64,000 nucleotides of DNA. Source: Cladochytrium replicatum (taxonomy: Eukaryota > Chytridiomycota > Chytridiomycetes > Cladochytriales > Cladochytriaceae). How positions within the stretch are numbered: the first letter of the stretch is position 1; each line of letters starts with the position of its first letter. This document shows, one piece after another, positions 5,450-62,528 of this stretch. The position numbers were made by a program, and so were the translations under genes. The notes below the pieces were generated by a model. It was not told the DNA's origin, ran no database searches, and was given only the letters and a program-made list of their open reading frames with translations. The stretch spans positions 398,053 through 462,052 of the forward strand of contig JAHLKD010000030.1 in NCBI GenBank assembly GCA_025526935.1, written 5' to 3'.

Positions 5450-5520
5450 GGCTCAGCCGGGAATTGAACCCGGGACCTCTCCGACCCGAACGGAGAATCA
5501 TACTACTAGACCACTAAGCC
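5450..5520 (-). tRNA. tRNA-Pro, anticodon CGG, no intron
   Basis: Read on the minus strand, the 71-nt segment folds as a complete cloverleaf. The 7-bp acceptor stem is GGCTTAG/CTGAGCC with one G-U pair. The anticodon stem CTCCG/CGGAG encloses loop TTCGGGT, giving anticodon CGG. The T arm is CCGGG/CCCGG around TTCAATT, and the internal promoter (B box) is intact. CCA is not encoded, as usual in eukaryotes. The D arm (GTCTAGTAGTATG region) resembles eukaryotic tRNA-Pro. LINE-like sequence begins within a few dozen bases on the upstream (higher-coordinate) side. Confidence 0.93.
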
Positions 5521-35523: not shown

Positions 35524-37876
35524 ATGTCACACACAGAACCGGAGCTGGAACGTGGTCCCCGTCTCAATAAGTCGCGGCCAATACGCTTCCATCAGCCAGG
35601 CGTAGGCAGGTACAATATCTTATGCCGCTGTTGAGCTACAGGGCTCGCTTAGGTGTATGTTAATATTTCCATAGACGCACCGGCATCGTTGCTCCCGAAA
35701 ATGTTGGAACTGACGAACAAGGAAGGATGAATTACAAGGAGTTCTACACGAAAGCCCTTGAGCAGGAAGCAGTCTGTAAGGGGCGACCTTGTAGCGTTCG
35801 ATTTGTGTTGACAGTTCGTTAACAGCAACGAGGGATGCAGAGAAACGCAAGAGAAAGCCATCCACAATGCGCGGTAGGTAATTTTCAAATTGGATTATAG
35901 GTGGAACTGACCTTGCAGTATCAGGACACGGAAATCGAGGTAGTTTGTTCGTTCGCAGGTATTCGTGATATATTGAATCACAAGCTTTCCAGACCTGCGA
36001 GTCGATGATAATGGACTGGGTCCCGAGAACATTGAATCAGGTAATCGATCGATGCCGCACCAATGAACGGGTCTCATGTATATCCGATATCTCCTGTAGC
36101 AGAACACACTGGTACGATGCTGAAGACACAGGAGTTTCCATTCGTGTTAACGAAACCGCGATTAAGCCAATTACAACAGTAATGAGAGCAGAAACGGCAC
36201 CAAACGTGCAACTGCTCCTACAAGTGACGAAAGTGAGGTTGAACACTCACCTCCGAACTCAAAGAATCGGCCTAACGTTCGAGCCGATGTGTCTTTGGAG
36301 CGAGCTACCAGTGAATTGGACTCGAGCGATACAGATATGAGAGTGGAAGAACTTGGTGCTTTCGTAGACACCCCCAGTCGGCAACGTGCCCCAATCCGAA
36401 GCAGGGATGGGAAGGGTAGCTTGGCATTATCAAGTAAAAGCATCCAGAGAAAGAGGACCTTGACCGAAAACCCTGCAACAGCGATTCACTTGCCTGATCC
36501 TGTTTTCGAGTCTCCTTTATTACCCGAAATTTCGGGTGACGGATTGAGTGATGCACAAAGGAACGATGACGCGGGGCATGCCAAGAATACGAAACGTTTG
36601 AGCCGGGCGAAGGCTACCAATCAAGGATGGGAGGATGTCGTGGGTCCTGAGTCTGGGCTAGTAGAGCAACACCGGGACGGGAAGGAAACTAACGGTCGCA
36701 CAAGAAAAGAGAAAGTTACCCCAGGCTCTTCGAAGAGGCGGCGCGCTCCAACATCTGACCCTGAACCCAGCCCAGCGAAGCGACCCCGCTACTCTACAAA
36801 GGACGATGACAGACAGAAAAATATGATTAGTGCGGACCTGCATGCCGAAGTGGGACCTGACGAAGTTGAAAACACCCCACGCCTAGTGACAAAGGTGAAA
36901 GCCAAGGTAGTTTCACGAGAGATTAAAAAAGCCAAACCGAAACCCGTCGCTCGGTCTCCATCGGTGGAAGGTACATCTGAAGCTCATCATGTGTCTGACA
37001 AGCTCAATTTTTGTAAAGGAGACAACAATGAGGTCCGTCGAAGCCATCGAACCAGAATCAAACCTGTCAAGTTTTGGAAGTGCGAGAAGGCTGTGTACCG
37101 GTGTTCTGCCGGCGATGGTAAGTACGGTGGAATGTTTATTATATAGGATTTTGTTCATAAGGAATGTTTGATAACAGGGTCTGTTCCTATTCGTTTGCCA
37201 GAACTTATTAGTGTGGAGATAAAAGAAGAGGATACCCCTTACCGTCCCCATCTATCAAGGAAACGGCGTGTACATGCAAATACCAGTTCCTCAAGCAAAG
37301 CGGTTGAAATTGACGAACCTATCCCAGTGAAAGTATGGGATAGTACGCAAGGAGTTTACAAAGAACAAGGTATTCTTTCATTTCAGTTGCGGCCGGTATT
37401 TCGATCTAACCTCGGTAAATGAAAAGCGCTGTTTTCTACACCAAATATGATGAAACCGAAGAAACTTCAGCATCGTGATTTTCTCTTTCAAAAGCTGTTC
37501 AGTGAAGGAGAACACTTCTCTGCTGGATTGTTTGAGATTCCCGTCGACTGTGAGATCCCGCGAAAGAACACAAGGCTCTTTTCAATGGTATCCACATTTG
37601 CCGTTACTTCGGAACGTCACCTAACAATCTTAAAGGGATTGGTGGTTATGACGGGTTATGTACGCATAAGCATGAACGACCTTGAGTTCATAATTGGTCC
37701 CGGAACGATGTCATTTATCCCTCGTAGTAGGTCACATGCATGGTTTCTTATAGTTGGACTGATGTGTTGCAGTGAACTTGTACAGGATAGTCAATGTTGG
37801 AGAAGAAACGGCACGAGTTTACTGGTTTTCAGCCAAAGAAACTGAAGTTGTCAAGGGTCTAGTTGAACGTCCATGA
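35524..37876 (+). CDS. MIF2: Inner kinetochore protein Mif2/CENP-C, about 11 exons
   Basis: Links centromeric nucleosomes to the outer kinetochore. Exons as read: 35524-35609, 35675-35775, 35826-35873, 35901-35939, 35993-36040, 36100-36143, 36187-37117, 37178-37369, 37427-37587, 37636-37726 and 37773-37876, totalling 614 residues in one frame. The N-terminal Mif2 block is RPIRFHQPGVGRRTGIVAPE plus NVGTDEQGRMNYKEFY. The CENP-C signature is RRSHRTRIKPVKFWKCEK, which contacts the nucleosome acidic patch and CENP-A tail. The C-terminal cupin dimerisation domain shows FLFQKLFSEGEHFSAGLFEI, VVMTGYVRISMNDLEFIIGP and NLYRIVNVGEETARVYWFSA. The four short exons between 35826 and 36143 are tentative; 35901 could be skipped or shortened without frame change. 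The small intron at 36144-36186 is 43 nt. Confidence 0.85.
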
Positions 37877-38103: not shown

Positions 38104-40273
38104 TCACGGATTCAACCCACTTCGGTTATGTTCTGGTTCCATTGAGAAAGCGGCAGCCACTGGAAATTTGGCAGCAATCAATGTTACGGTCGGCCCCATT
38201 CTGTGGTGTGTGTGTTTTTCAATCAACACAGCAACTCTTTGCCCGTACTTTGATCCACGTAGTGTTGAAAGATGAGGTAACATCAGCCGGACTGCAACTT
38301 CTCGTTGCTGAGGCTCTGCGATAGTCACTATGTGCTGGACTACATAGTTACCGAATTGATTGTTCATCATGTCAATAATATTTGGCCGACTTAAATAAGA
38401 TCAGACATAGGCAGCAATGTTCCCACAACAAACTCACCCGCCACGTCCGCAAAGCGGCGAGATTGCTTGGTCAACAATCTCGTGAAGGTCTCGCCTTTCA
38501 GCAACTTTCAGAGCCTTCTCGACAACTTTGCTGGCATACTGATCGATACTCATCGGAAACAGATTGCGCTTGACAACGTTCAAAATGTATAGCTTGTCCT
38601 GGTGAAGGCCATGTTCAAGTATATGTTGAATAACCCAATTCCCCCACTGTCCCTTCGATATTGCCACGGTGTTTGCGAGGATCTCGCATAATATTGAAGA
38701 TTTCTCCTTTTCAGAGCAGTTTTCAAAAATGCATTGAATCACCAGCGACCCGTTCTCGTCGTTTGCAACCGAATGCCATTGGCCTTTGAGAGCAGCATCG
38801 ACATATTGAATAATTACTGGTGGCTCCGTCGACCACTCCGTTTCAAATATACGCTGCCACACATGCGAAGCAAACCGGTGGGTGAAAGTTTCCGGTATCG
38901 CACGGAAAAGCTCGGAGATTAGGCCAGCCTTCATATCCTCATCCAAAAATTCAAGTGCCTAGTTTTTTTCAATACGAAAATAAATTTGACTCGGCAGAGA
39001 TGAGTACCTTTTGCAAAACATGGCATGCGAACCGGTCGCACGCCAAGGGGAGAAACTGTCCTTTCATCGCATTTCCAATCATTCTATTCTGCATGGGCGA
39101 CCCTTAAGAGAAGAACAGTGAACATCGCGTAAGTATATCCTGCGAAGGAACTGACCAAGCTCAAGACATCTTTGGACCAGGAAGTTGCCAAACCGATTTT
39201 TCATGAGTGGAAGACTCTGCTTATTGATTGCTTCGAAGATTATGTCTTTGAATTTCGACGGTGCAGTACTCAGTTTTTGCTGAAGAAATAAGGAAGCTGG
39301 CTGATCGTTTGTTTTTGTTATCTTTTCTACTAAATGCTATAGCCAACGTGAGGCACAATTCAAAATTAGGGCGGTGGACTTCTTACATTCAACAGAGTAG
39401 CTATGCGGGCTTCATCCTCCGAGCATGCAGTATGTTCGTCATGGAAAAATATTAGCCGAGTGGCCATGGAATGCTCCTACAACATACACGGTTGAATTTT
39501 TTGAAAGTTGGAGAGTTTATGAAGACAGATACCAAGTGGAGAGATTCTTGAGTAAACACGCAGGTTGTCCCAGCTGCCAGGGGTGCCCAGATGGATCGTC
39601 CATTCGAATCCACAGCAACCAGGCTGTCACTGCTAGGGGAGCAAAATTTCTCATCTATATCATTTTCGCGAGGCTGAAATCCACCATATTCCTGTTTGCA
39701 ATCCTAGATCACGAAGTTCAAATAAATTACCGAGTTTGTAGATGCTACACCTACTATACAAATCGCACGGTAGTCTGGACGCCTGAGTCTAGCAGCAGCC
39801 GCTTTGTCCGATAAATCGTTTTCCAAGTCGTGAACAATCTGGAGGGAAAGGCGTTTGAACCAGCGAAAATTCAAATCCAGTCTAACCTTTTGGAGACTTT
39901 CAATCGCTTTATCTTTCTCCTTTAACTCCAATCTACGCTCATCAAGCTGACGGCTTTTGATTCTGAGTTCATTCCGCAGCCAACCGATTTCTCCTGCCAA
40001 GTGTTGGACGAGCTAATGGTGATGACCGTCCAGTAATCAGAAAGAATCAATTTTGAACGAATTACTTCTTTGCGCGTTTTCAAGGAGCGATAGGCCGCCT
40101 GTACGCATGTAGCAGCCCGTTCTAGGTAGATCCTGGAAATACGTCGGCGAAACCACCGTTGAATGACGATCACGGCCGGAACGTTCTGATAATTTGATCA
40201 TTTAGTGATCGTTTGTGTCCCGCTCTTTTCAGTGCACCTCGAGATTCACCAGCAGTTTGGTTGCTTGTGCCAT
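38104..40273 (-). CDS. IQ-motif/coiled-coil protein fused to a Pumilio (PUF) domain, 10 exons
   Basis: Exons on the minus strand: 40273-40238, 40185-40066, 40012-39887, 39838-39755, 39703-39533, 39476-39387, 39336-39156, 39102-39008, 38958-38438 and 38389-38104. They give 569 residues with every junction GT-AG and in phase. Residues 13-52 carry two IQ-like motifs (VIQRWFRRRISRIYLER and CVQAAYRSLKTRKE), candidate calmodulin/light-chain sites. A Leu/Arg/Glu/Lys coiled coil follows (residues about 53-115; LRIKSRQLDERRLELKEKDK). The PUF domain spans about 205-550 with eight repeats. Their recognition helices read ASLFLQ, GNFLVQ, ACHVLQ, ASHVWQ, GSLVIQ, GNWVIQ, ASKVVE and GNYVVQ, then a cap (KYGQRVAVLIEK). 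PUF proteins bind 3' UTRs and repress or localise mRNAs. The join of IQ part to PUF part rests on phase and short introns; two adjacent genes remain possible. Confidence 0.8.
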
Positions 40274-40342: not shown

Positions 40343-40522
40343 ATGTCTAAGCCCCACCTTCATCCCACCACTATCACTAAGCCACTCCCTACTATCTATT
40401 CTGCACGAGAGAGCTTTGCAGGGAATATCAAGGCGAAGCGTGCAATACCCGTGAATGAAGGCATATGCGTAGGTTCGAGGGACAATATGTCGGCTGCTTT
40501 TCCATCCTCCACCGGATCTTGA
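40343..40522 (+). CDS. Possible small protein, 59 residues
   Basis: An ATG-to-TGA frame (MSKPHLHPTTITKPLPTIYS...) lies 70 nt from the divergent start of the PUF gene. It is Ser/Thr/Pro-rich with a basic middle (GNIKAKRAIPV). It looks like a small-protein gene because it is a clean frame next to a promoter region, but I recognise no family and chance is possible. Confidence 0.25.
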   Translation: MSKPHLHPTTITKPLPTIYSARESFAGNIKAKRAIPVNEGICVGSRDNMSAAFPSSTGS

Positions 40523-40841
40523 TTATTCCCCCCTTGCCTGTCTGGAGGATGGTTTGACAAGTTGACGATGTTGAGATAGGTTATTCCGTACCTGTTGGGT
40601 GATTCTGTTTGTATTGCTCGAGGTCCTTTCAGGGATCACTGCAGACAGTTGATGTACGAAGTAATGAATATGAATGCACCAAAATTTGTGTGGCAAAGAG
40701 GTCCTTCCGATGAACAATTGCCGAACCAATCCAAACACTGCCCAGCATGAAGAATGAAATAAAACTAAATCAAATCAACACATTTGGATGTAGAAACATC
40801 GCAAAAAAAAATTGTGATTCCGTGCAAACAAGTGTCCCTGT
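40523..40841. other. Intergenic stretch before the copia remnant
   Basis: About 320 bases without a recognised gene. A 71-codon minus frame (40523-40738) contains LVRQLFIGRTSLPHKFWCIH, which could be a scrap of copia integrase, but this is weak. Confidence 0.25.
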
Positions 40842-43405
40842 TCATTTCAACACTTCCCCAGGAAAATTTTCTTTCTTCAGATCACTCTCTACTTCGTTCT
40901 CAATCTTGCGAAGACTGTACCCATGAGCGCAGAAACTGAAATTCGGTTTCGGTATTGGTTTTGTGAGGGCATCGGCGATGTTCTCTGCAGTTGGTACTCT
41001 CTTCACTACGATCTGGTGAGTTTCAGTGACTCCCGAAGTTAATGAAATTTGATGTCGATGTGTTTCGCTAAGGAGTGTTTCTGTGCTCAGAAGGATAAAG
41101 AGGGAGCACCATTGTGGTCGCAATGGTTCGTTGTCGCTCCTTTCTGTTCAAATCCAAGCTCACTAAGAAGTGATCGAATCCATTTCATTCCGTTGCAGCA
41201 GTCGACAATGCAACGTACTCAGCGTTCACGGTTGATATGGCGATCGTGCTTTGTTTGTTTGATTTCCACGACACTGCAGTGTTGATCGGGAATGCATATC
41301 CTAATACTGACTTACGATCATCGGTATCGTCAGCAAAATTGGCGTCTGAAAAGCACTCCAGACAAAGAATATTGTCGCTGGTGGCCTTGTACACGAGCCC
41401 GAGGTCCGCGCTACATTTGAGATATCGAAGCATGTGCTTTACAGCGCTCCAATGGCCGGGGTACGGGGCTACTTGGTAGTGCGCTGTGGTGTTTAAGGCG
41501 TAAGCGAGATCTGGACGTGTCCCAGTGATGAGGCACATGACCGAGCCAATCGCAGTCCGATAGCTGATTCCCCACCCAGGTTTCAGTGACAACGCCATCC
41601 ATGCATGATCTTGGTGAGTGCTTCGGTTATGTAGGAGTGGGTCAAACTGGAGTTGAATTGCTGAATAGTAGTTTCTGCTAGACGTTTTCGGCAGGTTGGC
41701 GCTATATAAAACCAATAGTCTATATAATTAAGAATAACATTGCAAAAGTGAATGATAGTAAATTTGTTAAACTAAATAATGGTGGACCATGATCGCTCCA
41801 TCCTTCCCCTGGGCCAAGGATGAAGTTCATGTGAGATCAACAGAAATCTGGAGAGCTCTTTCTTCAACCAGGCAACTTTTTCAGGGTCGTTGGTAAAAAT
41901 TCCAGAGTCATCCACGTAGGATCGTGAGTTGCCGTGGCGTTTGACGTAAACGGAGTTGTCTGATGAAAGGTGTATCCATGACAGTGAGGATGCGGTTGCT
42001 CACAACGTTCCACTCCTACCCCGATTGCTTGAGCCCGTAAAGTGCCTTGCGAAGGCTGTAGGCGAGGTCGGGTCGGCCGGGAAGGGAAAATCCGGGAGCT
42101 TGACGCAAGTACAGCTGTTGGGAGATAATGCCATTCAGGTACCCGGTGACTATGTCGAGCTGAGATCGACGATGGCCAAGGGCGGCACATATTGCAAACA
42201 ATATGCGAAGCGAACTGTGACAAACGACGGCGCATAAAGGCTGTTCCAGCTGAAGTCCACACCTTCGCGCTGTGAGAAAACTTGGGGTGACCAGCCGGGC
42301 CTTGAACTTGGAGATCGTTCCATCCTCATTGGGTTTCACCCGACAGACCCACTTTGTCCCGATCTGTTGGCACTAGGGGGTAGAACCTGGAGTTCCCAAG
42401 TGCCATTTTTCTCTGATCGCATCGCAGTGTCCCATTCTTTCATTCTTTCGCGAAAGGGGAGCGCATGGCCTCTTGACATGTGAGTGGTAGAGGAATGTCA
42501 CGAGCCAAAACGACTTTGGTGAGTTTCACCAGGGGAGGGGACCTTGCTGACGACCGAGAGTCGCTGGGAGGGCCATACTCATCGCTTTCATGAGGGCCAT
42601 CCTCATCGTCGGTTTCGTTGAAAACAACTGAGATTGATGTGATGATTCGCCAGATGTCCCGGTTCAAGAGTTCGTATCCTTGGTGCTCGTAACCTAGAAG
42701 GGCAGCAACGCGCACTTTGGAATCGAGTATTCTGCGTTGTTTCTGGTCGATGAGAGCGGCTCCCAAATGTAGGCAAGTGGGAATCGTCCGGTTATTGTAG
42801 GCGATGTCGAACGGTGTTTCGTGGCTGGGGAGGTGGAATTCTGCGAGCGGTTGTAAACATAGCTGGCATACGTTAGAGCGTCGCTAGCGTAGCGTTTGCT
42901 TAAGCTTGATTGCGCCAAGATCTTGCGGGCTTTCTCTTAGTTCATGGGATTGTGGCGTTCGGCAGTTCCGTCCTGTAGGTGTGCATCGGCCATGGTGGGA
43001 AGATGCCGGATGCCATTTTCCGCAAAGTACTTCGAGTTTCTTGAATTCATTCGCCTACTCCATCTGAAATGAAAATTTTCATGCAGTGTTTTTCATCAGC
43101 TGGTTGTACGAAATGACGTGTTCAACAGTATTGTCCTTCTTCGCCATCAAGTAGAGAAGGGATAGGCCACCTTTGCGTTGGCGCATTGGCAATGCGTAGC
43201 GATAGCCTTCTCGGGTTGGTTGATCCAGAGTGATCAAGTCGCCGTCGACGACGTCCAAGATATCGTCTGGTTTGGTAGTGCGATTTGGGAATGGCACCGT
43301 GGTGGTCTTTCCTAGAACACGACATTCGCAAAATTCGCGCGCTTTGTGGGTGGTAAGTTTGAGGCCTGTTTGCAAGATTGTCTTTAGCAAGTCTCTTGCG
43401 CTCAT
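40842..43405 (-). mobile_element. Ty1/copia retrotransposon remnant (integrase to RNase H)
   Basis: Minus-strand frames in copia order, high to low coordinate: an integrase-side piece (43405-43079), integrase C-terminal part (42918-42694; YASDALTYASYVYNRSQNST), reverse transcriptase start (42339-42016; TISKFKARLVT, LDIVTGYLNGIISQQLYLRQ, LRKALYGLKQSG). Then the RT/RNase H end (41715-41185; YRTAIGSVMCLITGTRPDLA, HMLRYLKCSADLGLVYK, SVLGYAFPINTAVSWKSNKQ) and the closing NIADALTKPIP (41123-40842). Frames are broken between the pieces and the catalytic RT box is lost. No LTR was recognised. It belongs to a different copia lineage than the 55-64 kb elements. Its 5' side is cut by the repeat block at 43428. 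Confidence 0.85.
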
Positions 43406-47441: not shown

Positions 47442-47642
47442 TATTTATAAGATTCCGCTTGGTTTTGAATGAGCGTTCGATTAATTTTTTATATTTGTAT
47501 TTTGTTTTAAGTCACATAAATAAACATCAGCCATCGGCCGTGAAGTTCTTGTGGCTTGGACTGCAGTCCATCTCGTTGAGGTTGGGGCAGATTTGAAATT
47601 CTTTGGTTGACGTTTGGCATTTACCTTGATACTAGAAGTAGA

Positions 47643-50600
47643 ATGAATTTAGGCCAGATTTTTTTCGGAGGAAAGAAGAAAGCGAAGCAAACACCGAAGC
47701 CAGCATCTCGGGATGCCGAGGTAGGGGCCCATCTAACAAATGGTGACGGGAAGGATGCCGTTTTGCGTACCGAATTTGGGGACGGACTGGAAACAAGCGA
47801 GCCCGCTAAACCTGGGCGACCGGCATCAATGGTTTTTACCACAACTGCCATCACCCATGTCGCATCTGCACGAAATTTGAGCACCGAACCCCCCGAAAAA
47901 CCCGGAGAACGTGTTCCATTCTTTGAGGAGAAGGCGTTAACATCGGAGAGCTTGGTCGAAGACGCTCAGTATATGTCTGATGATGACGAGATTTTTTCAT
48001 CGTCGGCTCTTGGCTCACCCATCGCGAAAAGCTCGACATTAGCCTTCCGAATGGCGAATTCAGTTCAACGCGGTGAAGAGAGTGTCTCTGCGCAAGAAAA
48101 GGACGATGAGTTGTGGACTTATCCTCGGCCGCTCGACACAGTTGCTCCACAGCAGCAATCACAGCAGCAATCGCAACATCTAAGTCATCATCGATCAATT
48201 ATGTCAGAAAAGTACAAAGCTCAATCAAACGACATGCTGATGTCTCGCTCAGCATCGCTTACTCCAATTATTAGGGATGATGCGAGACTTTGGTCTGCGT
48301 CATCCCAAAAGCAACAATCAGTCAAGCGGCAAAGTAATATTTTCCATAATCCTGTGCAATCAAAATATGGAAGAGATTCTGGGAGTGTCAGAGAACCCAT
48401 CACTACTCTCAAAGTCAAACAGACAGATTCATATCATACTGTTCTTAATTATGCCTCTCGAAACCATCTTCGCAAAATTGTTCAGCAGCTTCTACTTGAG
48501 AGCTTAATACCAGCAGAGAAGCTATGGGAAGATGTCCTGATGAATCTGTTACTGTTTACTTCCCATAACGTTTCACCAAGTGTCCAAAATGGAGACGAGA
48601 GAGATATACGTTACTATGTTAAAGTGAAGAAAATTCCAGATGGAAATCCAATTGACAGCCAATTTATCCAAGGAGTTGTTTTTTCAAAGAATGTTATGCA
48701 CAAGAGAATGCTTAAGCCGGTTACCAATCCAAAAATTCTGCTCATAGCCTTTCCAATTGAATTTCAAAGAGTCCCTCAAACTTCTAGCTTGTTTCCAAAT
48801 GACACTTCACATAAACTTTTGCCCCTTGAGCCTGTGCTTTCACATGAAAAAGAGTATCTGTATAATATTACATCAATCATTGTATCAACTGGTGCAAATG
48901 TTGTGCTTTCAAGAGAGAGTGTTTCCCGCTTTGCCCATGAGTATCTGATAGATGCAAATATTGTTGTTGTTCAAAATGTGAAAGATTCTGTACTTGAGCT
49001 CGCAGCAAGATGCACACATGCAGATATTATTTTCTCTATTGAGCAACTGAGATCCAGACCCAGAGTTGGGATTTGCAAAGAGTTTCGAGCGCAGAGCTTT
49101 CTGCATACACATGGGCCAGTTTGGAAACAGTCATTAATTTTCTTGGAAGGAACACCGATGCCATTTGGATGTACAATAATATTGCGAGGAGCACAAAGAG
49201 ACATATTGGCAAAGCTAAAAAGTATTGTACAGTTCTGTTTACATATTGTCAACAGTTTAAAACTTGAAACATCGTTATATACTGACCTGTTTGCCAAATC
49301 GTATTCTGATTCCACTGAAGAATCTGCTGATTCAAGTCTTAGCAAGCTTTACTCTGACAAATTGAATTTCACCACAAATGATGACGGTACACAAAAAGCT
49401 GATATATTGGGTAAAATTAACCATGTGTTAAATATTTATCAAATGTCATTAGTTTCAGCATCTCCTTTTGTCCATTTCCCTCCCCCTTTTCTTCTTTCTA
49501 AAATGGCTGAAGCTGCATCAATGAGTTCTTTACTTCACCCTCTCACAAGACAACAGTATATAGAATTTACAAGAGAGCTTGCCTTAGATGATCAGGCACT
49601 CAGAAATGTGGAAAGTGAAGTTGATTATCATCGATCATTATCTGGACTTAGTTACTTGTTGAACACAGCCACATTGCATGCTTCAGAACATCAAAATATT
49701 GCTGTGTTGTATTCAATTGTCAATAGTAAAACCTCAGCTCCATGTCAACAACCAGATATGCGAATTATTGAATATTATCAATCTAAGAGTGACCAAACTC
49801 TTGGTGAATATATTACAGATCTTTGCTTAACTGCACACAATATATGTAGCTCAGAAGGTTGTTCTCAAACCATGTTGTGCCACTATCAGAGCTTTACTCA
49901 TGGGAATGGGTGTATAATGGTATCAACTGAATCAAAATCACCACCCATTATAGGATCAGAAAACTCCATTTTAATGTGGAGTCGTTGCAAAATTTGTCAG
50001 AAAGAAACACCAGTTGTCCAGATGTCAGAAGAAACGTGGACTTACTCCTTTGGCAAATATCTTGAATTATCTTTTTACAACTCTCAAGTAAAATCAAGAG
50101 CAGATATCTGTCCCCATAATCTATTTCAAGACACTCTGAGATATTTTTCCTACAAGAAAGTTACTGTACAAGTTATGCATGAGACAGTTGAACTCTTTGA
50201 AATCTTCGCTCCTCCTTCAAAATTGCAAATAAGTTCTGAAATTAACCGGCAGCTCAAGTTGCAGGAGATAGAGTTGCGGCGGACTCAGATCATGAAGTAC
50301 TATGACTCTGTCCATAACAGATTGTTAGATTTGAGCTCTCACTTAGTGAGTACCACAAAAGTCCAGTTATGTAAAGATGAACTAGGAGAATCTTTGAAGA
50401 AGAGTATTGGAGAGAAGAAGTTGATGTTACAGATACTACAGCAGACAATTGTCAGTAGTTCAGCTGAAGATACGCTTTCATTGACAAAAGTTCTCAAGAT
50501 ATTTCAAAGCAATATTCATGCGTGGGATCTTGAGTTTTCTAGGCTACTAAGAGCATATTTTCAGCCTGATGTCAAAGAGCTAAGAAGATTGACAACTGTC

Positions 50601-53126
50601 CAACTGAAGAAGATATTTAATGAAAAAGACCTACCCTTACGTGCGCCATTACTTCCCCTTATGTCACAAGACTATAACGATCTCGAATCAGAGGGAGAAC
50701 TAGTTTCATCTGGATTAGTATTGCCATATCTTGGAGTTTCTCCAACAATTAATTTTGGAGGGCCAGATGATACAGCTTCTGAAGTGAACAATGTATCTGG
50801 AATGGACCATCACTTTTCAAAACACAGTGACAATGAATCTTTTCAAAAGAATTCTCAGAACAACAAAAGCTTATCATTATCTCTACAATCTCAATTGTCC
50901 CTATTTAGTCTGATAATAGAGAATAAGCTGCCAGAAAATGACGATGATTTTCATGCTGAGTTTGTATCTGACATAGTGATCCCAATGGGTACACCTACTT
51001 TGTCATTTGAAGCCTATCCATCAAATGAAGAGTATTTGGATCTTATTAATGCAAGCCTGATAGATAGCATACTTCAAACTAAACCTCAAGAAATCGAGTC
51101 AGTTGCTATTGAGAATAGTAGTAGTGAGAATGGTCAGAAGGGTGAATCCACTTTGTCATTGAACCTAAAAAGGACAGAAAATGTGCACGAGGGAAGCATT
51201 GCAGTTAAATCTTCAAATTTAAATAATGGCAAACATTTGCCACTTATTATGTCAAGAGGAGCAAATGACACAATATTATCTGAGTCAAACAAAGACGAAA
51301 TGTTGAACAGCATAAGTGGAGTTGCAGTAGGATCTTACGATTCACTTGATGATGAGCTTGCCTCAATCTATTCAAACAGAAAGATTGGGTCAGTCCCTAG
51401 TACACGGAACATTGCTTCTGGTGCGCAAGTTCATGACACAGAATCATTGCAATATACAGAGAGAAATACAATCATTCGTGCTATTTCAGGATTATGGTCA
51501 GGATTGCCACCAGGGATTGTTCCTCTTGAATATCCAGTGTGAGTTAAAACCATGAGCATATTTAACTGTGTTAATTTCCATTTCAGGTCATCAGGAGAAC
51601 ATATCTTTAATGATTCTCTGGTTATTATTCGTGAAGATGAACCAAGCTCAATCATAGCGTTTACCTTAAGGTAGAAAGTGGTGAAATTTCCAAAGAGTGT
51701 GGCTTAAATCATGTTTCACTTGAAGCTCAAAAGAGTACAATGAAAAGTTGCGAATGGCGTCAAGTATGAATGAGGATAAAAATGAGAGTTCTCTGCAAAG
51801 TGCACAAAACTTTGACACCTTTCCTGCCAGACCAACTATTGAGACGATACTCACACAGAACGCAATATTAGGGACACATGTTAAACTTCGTAAGGTTCAA
51901 TCTCTTGATAATGTGTAAAACTAAGGATGTTAGAGTTTAGCGATGGACCAACAAAGCTCTACTGCAAAGTCTATTTTGCTGAGCAGTTTGATGCCTTGAG
52001 GCAACAAAGTTATTATGAACCTCAATTTGTGCAGTCTCTGTGTCGATGTATAAAATGGGAAGCTTCAGGAGGGAAGTCAGGCTCACAGTTTCTAAAGTCT
52101 CGAGGTCAGAGCCAATATTTTCTTGAAAGAGTCTCAAATTCATTAACCTGAACAAAAGATGAAAGGCTTTTAATAAAACAACTGTCAAAACCTGAAATGG
52201 ACAGCTTACTTCAGTTTGCACCTCATTACTTTGACTATATGGCGAAGGTTTTCTTTCATAAGGTAAGTCTGTTTTTATTCCTTTTTGATTTGCCTGAGTA
52301 AGAGATCAATTGAAGCTCCCAAGTGTACTTGCAAAAATGTTAGGATTTTACAAAATTGGTTTTAAAAACCCAATTACTGGAAAGTCTGTCAAACTTGATT
52401 TAATTGTCATGGAAAACCTATTTTTTAACCGGAAAATTAGCAGAGTACGTATTATCCCTGTTATGTCACTTTTCGTTGCTCATTCAAAAAGATATTTGAT
52501 CTGAAAGGTTCAATGAGAAATAGACACATACAATCAACAGGAAAACAGAATGAAGTTTTACTTGATGAAAATCTGGTTGAATGTATGTACACTCCTGTTC
52601 AGTTCAGTTGAAGTAAACTGATTAGCTATATAGTTATATATGACTCTCCGCTTTTTATACGCGAACATGCCAAACGTGTGCTTCAGGCATCTGTTTGGAA
52701 TGACACATTGTTTCTCTCTCGTCATGACATAATGGATTACTCACTAGTTGTTGGAATTGATGAGGAACACAGAGAGCTTGTCATTGGAATTGTCGGTAAG
52801 GGGCTTTTTTGCGCTATCAAATACAAATGATTCTGTTATTTACCTTCTTCTTAAGATTTCATTCGCACATTCAGTTGGGATAAAAAGCTTGAGAGCTGGG
52901 TAAAAGAGACAGGCTTTCTCGGGGGAGGAGGTCGTGAGCCTACAATTGTTTCACCTAAACAATACAAAATGAGGTTCAGAGAGGCTATGGATAAATACTT
53001 TTTAATGGTAAAAACAATTGTCATGGCAAACAAGACAGAGAATTAATTAATCCCTTCATTGTTAACTAGGTTCCCTCAAAGTTTCATAACATTGCATATA
53101 ATGTAGAACCACCTATCTCTGTCTAA
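47643..53126 (+). CDS. FAB1: Phosphatidylinositol-3-phosphate 5-kinase Fab1/PIKfyve, without FYVE domain
   Basis: Makes PI(3,5)P2 on endolysosomal/vacuolar membranes. Exons 47643-51538, 51587-51670, 51726-51889, 51934-52104, 52159-52262, 52316-52444, 52492-52582, 52634-52795, 52856-53007 and 53070-53126 are all in phase, 1669 residues. The N-terminal 250 residues are polar and Gln/Ser-rich. The TCP-1/CCT-like domain follows (about 260-550; [38 protein letters not shown]). The Cys-rich Fab1 domain is at about 730-840 ([38 protein letters not shown]). The kinase domain, about 1330-1660, has [54 protein letters not shown] and [12 protein letters not shown] with [15 protein letters not shown]. 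No FYVE finger is encoded upstream, and CBF1 leaves no room for one. An open frame upstream to 47607 lacks ATG. Confidence 0.93.
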
Positions 53127-54606: not shown

Positions 54607-55678
54607 CTAAAATAGATGAGTTAACAAAATCAAGCCACTCATGACTTTGGGCAGTTTCTTTCCCAGAGAATGTAAAGTTTGCAGGATTTTCCGCAAATGT
54701 ATGTGACCAAATTGCTGGCGTAATCTAGCTAATTTGTTAATGGTCACAGCTGAAATGCTGTTTACTCCATTATCAGCCATTGTTTCGGAGTATAGACTTA
54801 ATGTTGCAGATGAAGCTCCGTCTAAAACTTCACCCCCGTAATCTCTAGTTTTGTTAGAATCTTTTGGGAAAACATTGTTGTCCTTCACAGTGTCAAACTT
54901 TACACCAGACATAGTTGTCTGCTGCTCTTGGGCAGTGTTAGTACTGGTACCAGGTAAAACATTCTGTTTGCCAACAGAGAGTGCAGAATTAGAAAGATTC
55001 GTCAAAATAGCTGCACCTATTTTGGAAGAGTGTTTAAGTCATGGATTAGTGGTATCCAAACTTCCATGAAGATAATATAAACCTCCACGTCTTAAATAAC
55101 ACATTGTTCAGTTCCTTTGTTTGACAAATAGACTTTGTCTTTGGTAAAACTGACTATATCACCTTCATCCTCGATGATGCTATAGACAGATATAAGTGTA
55201 TCCTCTAAATCGGGAACAAAAAGTGTGTTTTGAATGTGTTTTATTGAACCATTTGGCAAAACAAGTGCAATATCTCCATAGCCTTTAATAGGAATGGGAT
55301 GATTGTCTCCCAAGTAAATATCTCCTGCATCATTAACGTAAAATAAATTCTTGAATGCATGTCTGTCTGGAGTCATCCAAGCAGTAGCACCAGAGTCAAT
55401 CAAACCGAGAGGTTTGGCATTTACGTGTAGATTGCAGTTGGTACTCTTCAATGCTGTGATAATAGAGGGATGTGTAAAATCCACAATATTATTAGCTTTG
55501 AAGATTGAAGAGAAGGATTTGATTGATTGTACCTTGCTGGAAGGTTCTGATTCCTGAGAATCGATATCCATGTTCTGGGCCACAGCTTTGTTCAACACAA
55601 TAGTTACGAATCGTTGCTTAACACATTTCTTTGGACAACAACGACAAGATGGGTTCAGGATCGAATGACGCCACATCT
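54607..55678 (-). mobile_element. Ty1/copia fragment: protease and GAG-pre-integrase region
   Basis: Minus-strand frame 55688-55092 has the aspartic protease motif LGLIDSGATAWMTPDRHAFK and IYLGDNHPIPIKGYGDIALV with LFVPDLEDTLISVYSI. Frame 55005-54607 has LARLRQQFGHIHLRKILQT, the GAG-pre-integrase zinc motif start. Both resemble the same regions of the large element at 57.7-61.5 kb but at clearly lower identity, so this is a related, older element. It has no intact integrase or RT. The neighbouring element's LTR begins directly at its 5' side (55679). Confidence 0.75.
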
Positions 55679-56279
55679 TGTTGAACAAAGCTGTGGTCCG
55701 GATCCTCAGGTTGTGTGTGTTGTTAATTCACGGGTTAATGTTGCTAAGAGATGAATAAAGAAGATTGCGAGTCACAAGTACTAGCGCAAGAGAATGCTCC
55801 TTGTGTGTATCGCCACAGGCTCCTTAAATAAGTGTATTGTCGTTTTGGCTTTTCCTTCCGGAAGATCTGGATCGCAGCGATAAGGTTTGACTCTTCTTCT
55901 CACAGGTGTAGCGAAGCATAATCATGCTAAGCTGTGCGTGAGATCTAACTCTCCTCAGCAGGATTGTTTTCACACATGATTCCCACAAACGCGTTAATCA
56001 TATGTAAACCTTTGCTGTGATCTGATCCGGGCTTCACTTCTACAAGTGGATGATTGAGAAGTAATGACAGTTTACTATACCTATGGCCGCAATAAATATA
56101 ACCCATGAAGAAATAACTGGAGGTATCCAAACTCGTAATAGATCATCATCTATATGCTTTAGTTCAATAGTTAGAAATGTTGCTCAGTGAAGAGTGACAT
56201 TTCTGTATATCGGGCGTTTGTGTTTTTGTACTATCAATGACTGGATTGGCCAAGTCCATCAATCGAAATACTTAACACA
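55679..56279 (-). repeat. Long terminal repeat, 3' LTR of copia copy 1
   Basis: A 601-base segment matched base for base, with about 16 mismatches by eye, at 61928-62528. Minus-sense ends are TGTGTTAAG... and ...GTTCAACA, so it starts TG and ends CA. It is preceded in minus sense by the purine tract CTGAGGGGG, the expected polypurine primer site. RT/RNase H ends 125 nt from it. Confidence 0.85.
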
Positions 56280-56404
56280 CCCCCTCAGTCATTAGATAGG
56301 TACAACCGAGAGTATCACTCAACCGATCATAACTTTCTGTAAATGCTGAAGTTGATATTCCATTGAAATAAAGGTGAGTTGTATGGACATCGCCAGTCGG
56401 TCGT

Positions 56405-57826
56405 TCAAGATAGTATATTAAGTGAAGACTGACTGACTAGCCCCAACGAGCCCCTGTGTTTAAGGTATAATTTGCTTCCAAGAGGTTTAGTTAAGATGTC
56501 CGTGATCATATCAGAAGTATCCATATGGTGTAACTCCTGATGTTTCTGTTCAACTTGGAGATTCACAAATCTCTCGCGAACGTCCATGTGTTTGGTCCGT
56601 TTGTTGTTGAACAGATTGTTTGCGATAGACTCGGTGGATTGATTGTCTTGCCATAAACGGAGCGGATTGAACGACGTAATTCCGATACCCGTCATAAGAT
56701 TTTTCATCCACTTCATCTCGCGCGATAGTTCGTTCAGCGCATACAGTTCGGCTTCCGACGACGAGGCTGCAATAGTCTGTTGTCGAATCGACTGCCAACT
56801 GATTGCCGCATTAGCGAACATTACCACGTAACCAGTTCGTGAGTATCTATCTGCATCACCCGCCCAGTCTGCATCGGCATAACCTTGTGGGTTGTTAGCC
56901 GAATCAAACATGTAGAGACCGTCGGGTCTTAGCATCGGAGATGTGATACCAGTCCGTGTATAGTGTAAACCGTAATCCCAAGTACCGAGTAAATATCGTT
57001 GTAATCGATAGAGAGCCTTTGATTCTGACTGTCGAGGATCAATCTGATGTTGTGCCAAAATATTGACTGCGTATGAAATATCTGGTCGTGTCTTAGTCGC
57101 CACGTACGATATCTTCATTAACATTGATCGAAATTGTGTTGCCTCGGCATCGGACAGTGTTAGTGTGGTCTCATCAAAGATATATGATTTCGACATCGGT
57201 GTTTTGGTCGGTTTGATGTTGGTACCCCATAAATTCGCTTCTTCGAGAATCTTCTTTACGTACAATGCATTGCTAAGGAAATATCCTTCCGTTGTCTGCA
57301 ATAACTCCATTTTCAGAATCCATTTCGCCTTCGAAGTACTGCCTACTGTGAACGAAGTTTCCAAATCGGTCTGAAACCGATGATATGCGTTTGGATCTGT
57401 GGAAAAATGTAGTATATCATCGACATGAACGGTAGTGTGTTTGCGGGTACTATTTGTTGGATTGTATCGCCAGAAATGACAGATGTCTGCAATATTCCTC
57501 ACGAAACCAACACTGAGATATTGTTTCCAAAGAGTTTTGTACCATTCTCGAGCTGTCTGGTGTAGACCGTACAGACTTTTGATAAGTCTGCAGACGATGG
57601 GTCGATTCCGGAAATCTACTCGCCCGAAACCATGAGGGAGTTCGACGCAGTTCTCTTCTTCCAGTATCGCATTGAGATATGCACCCTTGATATCAAACTG
57701 GAATATGATCATGCCGACTAATGCTGCTAATGCAATCAGAAAACGGATTTTGGACGTTTTCGTAACTGGAGAATAGGTTTCATCGAAATCCAATCCTTCA
57801 ATCTGGAAAATCCTCGTACGACCCAA
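56405..57826 (-). CDS. Copia copy 1 reverse transcriptase/RNase H part
   Basis: Domains from N to C: GLDFDETYSPVTKTSKIRFL and FQFDIKGAYLNAILEEENCV (RT fingers, first Asp), PIVCRLIKSLYGLHQTAREW, TVHVDDILHFSTDPNAYHRF (catalytic VDD), then RSMLMKISYVATKTRPDISY, GYADADWAGDADRYSRTGYV and ASSSEAELYALNELSREMKW (RNase H Asp, Glu). It ends with the DILTKPLGSKLY closing motif. 473 codons in the open frame. It has no own ATG, since it is the 3' part of the polyprotein. Its frame overlaps the end of the upstream frame by 91 nt. Confidence 0.9.
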   Translation of the reverse strand: MGRTRIFQIEGLDFDETYSPVTKTSKIRFLIALAALVGMIIFQFDIKGAYLNAILEEENCVELPHGFGRVDFRNRPIVCRLIKSLYGLHQTAREWYKTLWKQYLSVGFVRNIADICHFWRYNPTNSTRKHTTVHVDDILHFSTDPNAYHRFQTDLETSFTVGSTSKAKWILKMELLQTTEGYFLSNALYVKKILEEANLWGTNIKPTKTPMSKSYIFDETTLTLSDAEATQFRSMLMKISYVATKTRPDISYAVNILAQHQIDPRQSESKALYRLQRYLLGTWDYGLHYTRTGITSPMLRPDGLYMFDSANNPQGYADADWAGDADRYSRTGYVVMFANAAISWQSIRQQTIAASSSEAELYALNELSREMKWMKNLMTGIGITSFNPLRLWQDNQSTESIANNLFNNKRTKHMDVRERFVNLQVEQKHQELHHMDTSDMITDILTKPLGSKLYLKHRGSLGLVSQSSLNILS

Positions 57827-60800
57827 CGTGCTTTGAATCGAGTGATATTGCCATGTTCGTCAAGCTTATATGTGAAAACCCATTTGCCCGATAGTAAATT
57901 CCGTCCATCAGGTAAAAACGTTTCGGCCCAAGTATTGTTGCCGACTAGTTGTGTGACTTCCTCCTTCATCGCCGCTAACCAGAATGGAGCCTCATCGGAT
58001 CGTGATAAAGCCTCACGAAGAGTCTTTGGTGCAGTCCGTATATTTCCATTCGCAATTGGTTGTGTTGGATATGAGGAATCGGCCTTCAGGGTCCAATCGA
58101 TATTAGGAACAGACCGGGTAAACAAGGAATTTTGTTTCCTTTTGGCGTTCGACAAATTTGCACTTGCTTGACGTTTTCGTTTTCTTGCTGCATACGCTTC
58201 GTCGACATCTTCTCCAATGAATTGAAGATCACTTTCGAGTTGTGCATCATATTCCTCTACAGGAGATACGGAAGACAAATTCGAAGATTCTTCAGTAATG
58301 GATTGTGGAGTCGATAAATCAGCATTTGGATCGTAATCAGCATCGTCTGGCTCATCATCGTCTAGTCCATGTAAATGTTCAACAACATGCATGTCACCGG
58401 CTTCTTCTAAGCAGTAATATATGGGGTCGTCGTTCATATCCTCATCGATTTCTTCGTCTGCAACGGTAGAAATCGGGAAATTGTCTGAGACAAACTCAAC
58501 AGTCGTCTCTTGCACCCCCTGATCCCCGGTTGGTATTTGATCAACATCGAAATATGTCCCGGCCTTCAGTGGATATTGTACCGTAAGATCGTCGAGTAAC
58601 TGTCGGGTAGGATTATAACCAACAAAAACTCCCTCGTGGAAAGTAACATGGAAGTATTCGCCTATTGTGTTTGTCCGAAAATTGAGTGCTATGACGATCT
58701 TCAGGTCTTCACCCTTGTATCCGAGAAACAGACCTGGTTCAGACTTGTCTCGGATTCTGCGCGCCAACCTTTGTTCGTGTGAGATCCACAAACTAACGAG
58801 TGTTCCAAAGGCGTGGATAGTTGCCAGATCTATCCGCTTGTCAAGGTAAGCACAGTACGGAATCGCATTCACAGCTGAATGGAAAGTAGCGTTCTTGAAG
58901 ACCGCAGCGTATAGGATGGAGAGTTGCACGAATTGAAGTGTTCGTGGTAGTCCAGCTTGTAGCAGCATCGCGTCTGACATATACTTGATCGATTGTATAT
59001 TCCGCTCTGATAGACCATCGAGTTCCTTTACTGACGGAGGAGCTGGGTGGACGCGGATGCGAGGAATCTTGGTATTGCACCATTGGATCAACCGTTTCGT
59101 AATCAATTCTCCTGAATCGGAACGTAGTTCAGCAACGTGTAATGGGTGATTGCGATTTTCCACATCAGCGATATGTCGAATCATACTATCCACCGCATCA
59201 CTCTTTCGATTCAGGAAGTAGATTGTGATGAAACGAGGTTGTTCGTCGACAATGATCTGCCAATATCTCTTCTTCTGTCCGTCGTAGATTAAACGTACGA
59301 CATCGGAAAACAGACAGAAAAGTTTCCTCGGAGCTCGACTTATTGTAGAATAAATCGGCTTCTGCTTCAGCTTCGTGCGACTACAGACCAAACAATTCTG
59401 CATAATTGATTTGTTGACAAGATTGAATGCATCCGGTTCAACCTTGGGCATTTTGATGTTGAGCTTCTCTGCCGTTCGAAAGATCGTCCGTAAGTGGATG
59501 TGACCAAACTGCTGGTGTAACTTTGCAAGTTCGTGTACTGTCACTGGCGATAAGTTGGTGCTCACTCCAACTGTATCTTGAGATGCTCGTTGACATTCAT
59601 CATCGTTCGTTTGACGAATGCTGTTGTCTGACATTACATCGAGACCCATCGCGTGAGAAGATCGTACACCGGACGTAAAGTCCATCGACTGATCGAGACC
59701 TTCTGCGGATACCGCTACTGCTTTAGCTCGTTGAGCAATCACATGCCGTGGTTGGTGAGTTCCGACAGTACTAACATCAGCATAGAGATAGTACAAATCT
59801 CTTTCCCGTCGCCCAATAATAACGTGTTCATCCGTATCACCATGCGTGAGGATAACCTTGTCTTTGGTGAAACTCACAATGTCCCCGGAGTCTCCAATGA
59901 TACTACACACCGATGCAAGTGTGTCTTCGAGATCAGGAACATAAAGTGCGTTGTGTATTATCTTAATTCGCCCATTGGGTAAAACTACAGATACATCTCC
60001 AAAACCACAAACTGGAATTGTATGACTATCCGCTAGTTCCACCACGTCCTCGTCATGCGTATACGTCAGCGAACTAAAGGCATGACGATTAGGTGTCATC
60101 CAAACAGTTGCGCCTGTATCAAGCAAACCCACACGATCCTTTGCTTGAACATGTACACAGACAACCTTCTGTGCCGAGTGTGCGTTCACTATCGAAAACA
60201 TATTTCCGATGTATGTGGCAGCATCTTTATCAACAGAAGTAGGTTGGGTAAGGTCAAAGATTACCTTCTTGGTCAACACCGGTTTGGCGGTAGACTCGTC
60301 CTCCGACGAATCATCACCTGCATCGCCACGGCTGGCAATGAATGCACGAAAATCCGTGTCTAAACAAAGACTCTTTGCAGTGAGATAGCGTTTACACGCC
60401 GACTGCTTGTGTCCTCGTTTGCCACAGAAGTTGCATGTGAGATCTGTCTTCTTTGCAGAAGAAGATGTGGACGACCTGGAGTCCTGCGACTGCCTGGTCC
60501 GAGTGGAACTGCTACTCCCACCGCTACTGCCTGATCCACCCGAGGCACCTTGCTTACGGCATTGAGCATTGGTGTGAGACGAGTTCGGATGCAAGGTACA
60601 AATATCCTCCGACTTCGCAACCTTGGCTTTCGCTTTCGCCTTCGCTTTCTTCGCCTTTGCCTTCATGGCCTTCTTTGTCCCATTAGGCCCACCGGCATCC
60701 ATGGTGACGTTGAGTTGGACCAATTGGTTGAGGTCAGTCAAGATATTTGACACTGTTTCGAAGTAATGCGTTGGCTTTTGGTGGAATGGTCGCGGAGCAT

Positions 60801-61464
60801 TCGGATTTGCAGCATCAATTGGATCTTGTATTAACGCCGGTTCCCATTCGGCATACGCAGAAGTGATCATTTTTCCGAGAAAAGGTACGAGGGTCCGTAG
60901 TTCAATTGTCTGCATCGTGATTTTTGTGACTAACCAGTTTAGTAGATCCTTGATTACGAGTTCGTCGGGTAAAGAGTTCAGTTTGAGTTCGAACAACTCA
61001 GTGAGGTCGGTCACAAACTGCTGAACGCTTTCTGCCGACTGACCGTTCGTACATTTCAGATCTACCAGCCGTTGCTCCCACATAGAAGATTCGATCGGAG
61101 CTTGACCGCCAGCACTGAAAATTCGGCGAAGTCCATCGACTTTGCCTTTTGCTGACGCATAAGCTCTGACTCGATTCATGTCGCGTTTTGGGAAACATTC
61201 GCATAGAATTCCAACTGCGACGTTATTGTCCGCTTGTTGTGCACGGTAATCTTGCATTTCAGCACGATATTGCGTACGTAAGTGACTGTTGTGTGTGACG
61301 ATCGCCAAATGTTCACGTAGTTCTGCTTCCCATTGTGCTCGTGCTTCGTTAGCAGCTCCGCCAGCAGCTCCGGCAATGACTATCGGACGCTGTGGGCGAT
61401 TTCCTTCCGCTTCGTAATTCGGACTATCAGGAAGAGCCATTGGTTCTTGTTGATGCATGCACAT
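57736..61464 (-). CDS. Copia copy 1 gag-protease-integrase polyprotein part
   Basis: 1242 codons from an ATG. Gag occupies the first 330 residues, followed by a Lys/Ala-rich stretch (AKAKKAKAKAKAKVAK) and the zinc knuckle CNFCGKRGHKQSAC. Protease is VGLLDTGATVWMTPNRHAFS. The GAG-pre-integrase zinc region is LHQQFGHIHLRTIF with CLVCSRTK. The integrase core has its three acids in FSDVVRLIYDGQ, VAELRSDSGELI and KELDGLSERNIQ. Near the end, NNTWAETFLPDGRNLLSGKW and RFKARWVVRGFS start the RT. The frame then leaves the conserved path at GGATTTTCCAG, where one C seems lost relative to the expected codons. A full product would need a sequencing error or frameshifting. Confidence 0.9.
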   Translation of the reverse strand: MCMHQQEPMALPDSPNYEAEGNRPQRPIVIAGAAGGAANEARAQWEAELREHLAIVTHNSHLRTQYRAEMQDYRAQQADNNVAVGILCECFPKRDMNRVRAYASAKGKVDGLRRIFSAGGQAPIESSMWEQRLVDLKCTNGQSAESVQQFVTDLTELFELKLNSLPDELVIKDLLNWLVTKITMQTIELRTLVPFLGKMITSAYAEWEPALIQDPIDAANPNAPRPFHQKPTHYFETVSNILTDLNQLVQLNVTMDAGGPNGTKKAMKAKAKKAKAKAKAKVAKSEDICTLHPNSSHTNAQCRKQGASGGSGSSGGSSSSTRTRQSQDSRSSTSSSAKKTDLTCNFCGKRGHKQSACKRYLTAKSLCLDTDFRAFIASRGDAGDDSSEDESTAKPVLTKKVIFDLTQPTSVDKDAATYIGNMFSIVNAHSAQKVVCVHVQAKDRVGLLDTGATVWMTPNRHAFSSLTYTHDEDVVELADSHTIPVCGFGDVSVVLPNGRIKIIHNALYVPDLEDTLASVCSIIGDSGDIVSFTKDKVILTHGDTDEHVIIGRRERDLYYLYADVSTVGTHQPRHVIAQRAKAVAVSAEGLDQSMDFTSGVRSSHAMGLDVMSDNSIRQTNDDECQRASQDTVGVSTNLSPVTVHELAKLHQQFGHIHLRTIFRTAEKLNIKMPKVEPDAFNLVNKSIMQNCLVCSRTKLKQKPIYSTISRAPRKLFCLFSDVVRLIYDGQKKRYWQIIVDEQPRFITIYFLNRKSDAVDSMIRHIADVENRNHPLHVAELRSDSGELITKRLIQWCNTKIPRIRVHPAPPSVKELDGLSERNIQSIKYMSDAMLLQAGLPRTLQFVQLSILYAAVFKNATFHSAVNAIPYCAYLDKRIDLATIHAFGTLVSLWISHEQRLARRIRDKSEPGLFLGYKGEDLKIVIALNFRTNTIGEYFHVTFHEGVFVGYNPTRQLLDDLTVQYPLKAGTYFDVDQIPTGDQGVQETTVEFVSDNFPISTVADEEIDEDMNDDPIYYCLEEAGDMHVVEHLHGLDDDEPDDADYDPNADLSTPQSITEESSNLSSVSPVEEYDAQLESDLQFIGEDVDEAYAARKRKRQASANLSNAKRKQNSLFTRSVPNIDWTLKADSSYPTQPIANGNIRTAPKTLREALSRSDEAPFWLAAMKEEVTQLVGNNTWAETFLPDGRNLLSGKWVFTYKLDEHGNITRFKARWVVRGFSRLKDWISMKPILQLRKRPKSVF

Positions 61465-61927
61465 ATATGGAACTAGCTACTCCAGTCTTCATCCGCTACC
61501 GACACTGAGGGGAAATAGCCTTACCAGAGACGTCTGGGACAAGTTCATGCGTAATCATACATTACATGAAAGAACTGGCATTTCTAACTATTGGTCATGA
61601 AGACATCCTCCTTTACTCATTGGAATCTAATAGAGTTCTGCGAGTGATCACGCGTTTGAGAAAGAATGTGATGCTAATCAGTTTGCTGCTGACAGTTATA
61701 TCATACTCAAGAACATCTCGTATGATATTAATGCAAGGTACTACACACTTATTTCTCATAGAGAACATGTCATTGTAGACAAGATTATAGCTAATCTTCA
61801 TGTTCTGCTCACAATGGTTATTGTGAACGATCACTGGGATCTATATCACTCTATTTGAGAGAATAATGTTTATATCAGATATTTCCATATATCTATAGCC
61901 ACAGGTTAATTATAAAAGCCGAAACGA
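61465..61927 (-). other. 5' leader of copia copy 1
   Basis: Lies between the right LTR and the gag start codon. It should hold the primer-binding site next to the LTR. The minus-sense bases after the LTR (TCGTTTCGGCTTTTATAATT) do not match the usual initiator-tRNA-Met site that I know for copia elements. AT-rich, no coding content. Confidence 0.5.
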
Positions 61928-62528
61928 TGTTGAACAAAGCTGTGGTCTGGATCCTCAGGTTGTGTGTGTTGCTAATTCACGGGTTAATGTTTCTAAGAGA
62001 TGAATAAAGAAGATTGCGAGTCACAAGTACTAGCGCAAGAGAATGCTCCTTGTGTGTATCGCCACAGGCTCCTTAAATAAGTGTACTGTCGTTTTGGCTT
62101 TTCCTTCCGGAAGATCTGGATTGAAGCGATAAGGTTTGACTCTTCTTCTCACAGGCGTAGCGAAGCATAATCATGCTAAGCTGTGCGTGAGATCTAGCTC
62201 TCCTCAACAGGATTGTTCTCACACATGATTCCCACGAACGCGTTAATCATATGTAAACCTTTGCTGTGATCTGATCCGGGCTTCACTTCTACAAGTGGAT
62301 GATAGAAAAGTAATGACAGTTTACTATACCTATGGCTGCAATAAATATAACCCATGAAGAAATAACCGGAGGTATCCAAACTCGTAATAGATCATCATCT
62401 ATATGCTTTAGTTCAATAGTTAGAAATGTTGCTCGGTGAAGAGTGACATTTCTGTATATCGGGCGTTTGTGTTTTTGTACTATCAATGACTGGATTGGCC
62501 AAGTCCATCAATCGAAATACTTAACACA
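61928..62528 (-). repeat. LTR shared by copia copies 1 and 2
   Basis: Same 601-base unit as 55679-56279. On its lower side it borders the leader of copy 1 (acting as 5' LTR), and on its upper side it borders a CTGAGGGGG purine tract and the RNase H end of copy 2 (acting as 3' LTR). Confidence 0.85.

Follow-up and report, generated by a model that had tools for sequence, protein, structure and literature searches.

Within the window, the 64,000-nt stretch of DNA analyzed here, ten exons on the minus strand (40273-38104, including the stop codon) splice in phase into a predicted protein of 569 residues. The frame runs through 569 codons with no stop in between, and the stop codon ends at 38104. 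All nine introns have GT-AG borders and measure, in order, 52, 53, 48, 51, 56, 50, 53, 49, and 48 nt; seven are in phase 0, intron 7 is in phase 1, and intron 9 is in phase 2. A preliminary description of this DNA had claimed just such a chain of ten stop-free, phase-consistent exons with GT-AG introns of 48 to 56 nt, and the spliced translation bears it out. We call this the IQ-PUF gene, and its exons are as follows.

40238..40273, minus strand: exon 1, with the start ATG at 40273 (MAQATKLLVNLE), A at -3 and G at +4; the right boundary is uncertain
40066..40185, minus strand: exon 2, containing the two IQ motifs (I20-Q21 and, 20 residues further on, V40-Q41)
39887..40012, minus strand: exon 3, the end of the second IQ motif and the initial 42 coiled-coil residues
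39755..39838, minus strand: exon 4, the end of the coiled coil, in the same heptad register as exon 3 once intron 3 is removed
39533..39703, minus strand: exon 5, linker without a known domain; the internal exon with the least support
39387..39476, minus strand: exon 6, linker, whose final residues (204-209) fall within the PUM2 alignment
39156..39336, minus strand: exon 7, PUF repeats R1 and R2
39008..39102, minus strand: exon 8, PUF repeats R2 to R3
38438..38958, minus strand: exon 9, the end of R3 through R7
38104..38389, minus strand: exon 10, PUF repeats R8 and R8', the C-terminal tail, and the stop codon TGA

The encoded protein thus carries two IQ motifs and, behind them, a strong coiled coil, a linker of 87 residues, and a classical PUF domain of eight repeats plus R8'. 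Two exons are weak points of the model: exon 1 is only 36 nt long and has the unusual donor GTGCAC, and exon 5, at 171 nt, has neither homology nor a Pfam match. Two further donors, GTTAGA and GTCAGT, are also unusual. Even so, a GTCTGT donor is apparently used by one of the Pumilio copies elsewhere in this genome (that on contig C118). An exon 4 ending at 39760 was rejected because it breaks the frame, which is restored by the donor GTAGGT with the exon end at 39755.

Several other features of the window surround this gene. Convergent with it lies a plus-strand stretch (36166-37842) with a CENP-C/Mif2 match at 37423-37842 (30.6 bits; cut-off, 29), so that a centromere protein gene seems to stand tail to tail with the IQ-PUF gene. 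Upstream are retroelement remains (40434-42883, minus strand) that we read as Copia-type, with an SH3_retrovirus match in 42443-42883 and no Pfam match in 41188-41727; related DNA has 27 more match pieces in the genome, and it extends to about 160 nt before the IQ-PUF start codon. Copia-type polymerase stretches also occupy 55095-64000 (minus strand) in long open frames (Pol_BBD and RVT_2), two of which have identical final residues. A 1,320-codon open frame with a TCP-1/cpn60-type domain (47580-51539, plus strand) is perhaps a Fab1/PIKfyve-type kinase, and a tRNA at 5449-5520 (minus strand) is the sole Rfam match of the window at the gathering score.

The C-terminal part of the IQ-PUF protein is a PUF domain. 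The Pfam family PF00806 (PUF) scores 165 bits in six stretches, over its cut-off of 26.3, and human PUM2 aligns in a single stretch to residues 204-534 (E = 1.7e-54). Among solved structures, 33 distinct sequences match at E ≤ 0.001, with PUM1 and PUM2 at the top (PUM1, E = 3.3e-58; compare plant Pumilio 23, E = 2.6e-08). Repeats R1 to R8 and R8' can each be assigned by comparison, repeat by repeat, with a canonical Pumilio of the same genome (on contig C151). Aligned to that paralogue, R1 to R8 show, as first and last contact residues, S-Q, N-Q, C-Q, S-Q, S-Q, N-Q, S-E, and N-Q. Under what we take to be the PUF code, these residues read 5'-UGUAAAUA-3', a UGUA-type site, and those of all eight repeats fit the code. 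The same assumed code reads the paralogue as UGUAUAUA, the difference falling at R4, where the IQ-PUF protein reads A and the Pumilio reads U. Both predicted sites fit the UGUANAUA class. The middle contact residue differs from that of the paralogue in seven of the eight repeats, including L instead of R in R1 and R5, and RNA affinity may therefore be lower. In the window itself, TGTANATA is not enriched (7 sites compared with 5.31 expected; 28 of 100 shuffles have as many). Taken together, RNA binding by the predicted PUF domain is well supported by sequence.

The N-terminal part is of a different kind. PF00612 (IQ) reaches 25.9 bits for the whole protein over two stretches, above the Pfam cut-off of 20.3, and the second motif alone, deprived of its exon 3 residues, still scores 20.4 bits (E = 0.037 when calculated for one genome). 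Residues 13-55 carry a net charge of +8. The coiled coil that follows shows a heptad pattern of hydrophobic residues in a register that is kept across exons 3 and 4; by a simple contrast score devised for this analysis, none of 10,000 shuffles of residues 53-112 scored as high. Exon 3 (42 residues) and the opening 13 residues of exon 4 reach their best contrast in one shared register, but only if the 48-nt intron 3 has been spliced out. With the intron retained, as the reading frame permits, the register moves by two, and this supports splicing inside the IQ-coiled-coil part. When the first 209 residues were compared with solved structures, only six weak coiled-coil matches were obtained, none better than E = 0.31. 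A Pfam match to CENPU (13.7 bits; cut-off, 27.8) fell below its cut-off and was taken as a generic coiled coil. With the Pfam scores, the PUM2 alignment, the heptad test, and the repeat assignment in hand, the earlier claim that two IQ-like motifs and a coiled coil are joined to eight PUF repeats stands.

We then placed this architecture among the other PUF and IQ sequences of the host genome (50.5 Mb in 198 contigs). The IQ-PUF DNA matches a single place in the genome, itself. At E ≤ 1, the protein matches beyond itself only loci on C151 and C118 and, weakly, one on C60, all within the PUF domain. A PUF search at E ≤ 5 returned at least 35 matches, of which at least 19 exceed the cut-off and lie at three loci (at least 8 on C151, at least 8 on C118, and at least 3 at the IQ-PUF gene). 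Two loci, those on C151 and C118, are canonical Pumilio loci, and a further one on C117 is of the Nop9 type. The two Pumilio copies look closely similar when judged by eye, and they sit on different contigs and differ in their introns; they represent either a duplicated region or two haplotypes. The C151 Pumilio shares the domain with the IQ-PUF protein at 36% identity over residues 217-528. There are 40 IQ matches in the genome at E ≤ 1, and only one of them is at a PUF locus, namely, the IQ-PUF gene; unlike it, the C151 and C118 loci have no IQ match among those listed. No relatives of the IQ-PUF gene were found in viral and prokaryote contig collections, where none were expected.

The IQ-PUF protein has the eight repeats, R8', and a predicted UGUA-type site in common with the classical PUF proteins, such as human PUM1 and PUM2 and Drosophila Pumilio. 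Pumilio N termini are generally long and of low complexity, whereas that of the IQ-PUF protein is made of IQ motifs and a coiled coil. In one survey, 4,469 Puf-repeat proteins are sorted into Puf, PUM3, and Nop9 clusters, with plant Pumilio 23 grouped with Nop9 (PMC7325665). Membership in the Nop9 group was rejected for the IQ-PUF protein: PUM1 is its best solved relative, and PUF_NOP9 scores only 65.8 bits on it, compared with 165 for PUF. Its best matches thus go with the Puf cluster, to which this predicted protein would belong.

Among the titles listed in a literature search largely confined to open-access papers, none concerned a PUF protein with IQ motifs. The words calmodulin, coiled, and chytrid are absent from the main text of PMC7325665 and PMC4654594, and the mention of calmodulin in PMC368173 concerns a purification tag.

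A combination of IQ motifs with a proposed RNA and cytoskeleton link recalls the plant IQD proteins. These proteins, such as IQD1, bind calmodulin, kinesin light chain, and nucleic acid; to our knowledge, they have no PUF domain. We liken the two by these general features and claim no homology. What is new here appears to be the N-terminal module, unusual in a protein whose RNA-binding domain is itself ordinary; the sequence supports this architecture well.

What might such a protein do? The preliminary description had proposed an mRNA regulator with a calcium/calmodulin or motor link. The regulator part follows from the PUF domain and its retained base-contact residues and can be kept, whereas the only pointer to calcium, calmodulin, or a motor is the IQ motif scores, and IQ motifs are no proof of calmodulin binding. 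Nor does anything in the sequence distinguish calmodulin from other EF-hand partners, such as a myosin light chain or centrin; control by calmodulin is accordingly a suggestion. Our preferred reading, to which we give an even chance of being right, is that of a dimeric PUF regulator whose IQ helix docks calmodulin or a related EF-hand protein and is switched by calcium. The coiled coil would form the dimer, so that a pair of PUF domains could hold two UGUAAAUA-like sites in mRNAs. Calmodulin, or a related EF-hand protein of the myosin light chain or centrin class, would cover the basic IQ helix and switch the complex with calcium. Some target mRNAs would be shared with the canonical Pumilio paralogues, and the IQ module would give them another fate, be it repression, storage, or localization.

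The strongest alternative accepts one gene and dispenses with the switch: the IQ helix and coiled coil would serve as a constitutive structural anchor that holds mRNA at the cytoskeleton by binding a basal-body protein, centrin, or a light chain of the myosin type. We regard this as possible, though clearly short of probable. An IQ helix followed by a coiled coil is reminiscent of the neck of a motor or of a scaffold used for anchoring, and the genome contains IFT57 as well as the 40 IQ matches at E ≤ 1. Against the anchor, the search of the first 209 residues in solved structures gave nothing better than E = 0.31, and both the partner and the location are hypothetical.

A second alternative is that two adjacent genes were misjoined through exon 5: a small IQ-coiled-coil gene, whose frame ends at 39704, next to a PUF gene that would begin with Met183 (39467). 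That the unspliced frame of exons 3 and 4 continues to a stop at 39704 fits this view, as does exon 5, which lacks a Pfam match and has a codon score like that of random open windows. The model frame is the best of the three sense frames in nine of ten exons (the exception is exon 2), by small margins. Codon scores are -0.035 for exon 5, -0.021 for exons 5 and 6 together, 0.024 for exons 2 to 4, and 0.011 for the certain PUF exons 7 to 10; random stop-free windows average -0.031, -0.008, and 0.004 at three lengths, and known coding stretches average 0.129 to 0.135. The exon 5 score is reached by a fraction of 0.494 of random stop-free windows, and 0.048 of known coding stretches score as low. 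Codon usage therefore does not set exons 5 and 6, or exons 2 to 4, apart from random open windows, and the PUF exons 7 to 10 are likewise near random; it thus carries no weight for or against exon 5.

The continuity of the gene is instead judged from splice arithmetic, heptad register, and the evidence on start codons. A stop-free spliced path linking exon 4 with exon 7 was possible in just 2 of 2,000 dinucleotide shuffles, which speaks against two genes, and in 59 of 2,000 random real stretches of the window (coding ones among them), which speaks for them. The rule behind these counts allowed introns of 45 to 60 nt and donors taken mostly from other introns; it included GTGCAC, mistakenly ascribed to an HSP70 gene whose donor is GTACAT. 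Because it was fixed after the gene had been viewed, the support is moderate. When any GT-AG intron was allowed, 110 of 1,000 shuffles gave such a path. A stricter run (0 of 1,000 shuffles) was discarded because its donor rule had been shaped by the already-seen donors of introns 4 to 6.

Other observations are harder to square with two genes. Between the end of exon 4 and Met183, only about 290 nt would have to hold a gene end, a promoter, and a start. Met183 is the only methionine ahead of the PUF domain besides Met1; it has T at -3, and five other ATGs precede it after exon 4 (39687, 39663, 39654, 39603, and 39485). The ATG at 40273 is instead flanked by A at -3 and G at +4. Reading through intron 3 also breaks the heptad register. 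We therefore consider two misjoined genes unlikely; very probably, a single gene carries the predicted IQ motifs, coiled coil, and complete PUF domain.

A fusion without function, private to this strain as a recent rearrangement or as a gene in decay, might be suggested by the repeated retroelement-like DNA reaching to about 160 nt upstream of the start, by the unusual donors, and by the lack of relatives in the viral and prokaryote collections. This reading is highly improbable given 569 stop-free codons, contact residues that fit the code in all eight repeats, and a heptad register intact across a splice junction.

To return to the calcium-switched dimer, the swimming spore of flagellated fungi would offer it a natural setting. 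The genome encodes an IFT57 match of 74.5 bits (cut-off, 40; 3 of 14 prokaryote controls gave weak matches below the cut-off), so the organism probably makes a flagellum. The window also encodes a Gti1/Pac2 domain, which we take to be typical of fungi. From these two features together, we infer that the host is a flagellated fungus. PMC8887899 describes the swimming spores of chytrids as inactive in translation, their ribosomes dormant and their mRNA of maternal origin; the words calcium and Pumilio are absent from that paper.

A bolder version is a long shot: the gene would be the founder of a conserved family of flagellated fungi, encoding a calcium/calmodulin-gated dimeric Pumilio that keeps the stored mRNAs of the swimming spore silent, perhaps close to the basal body or the ribosome cluster, until a calcium signal for germination sets them free.

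Partner proteins and phosphorylation are the usual means by which PUF proteins are tuned. In a PUF protein, a built-in docking helix for an EF-hand protein and a dimerization rod would link calcium or cytoskeletal signals to specific mRNAs within one molecule, and a candidate of this type would make the release of stored zoospore mRNA a testable question.
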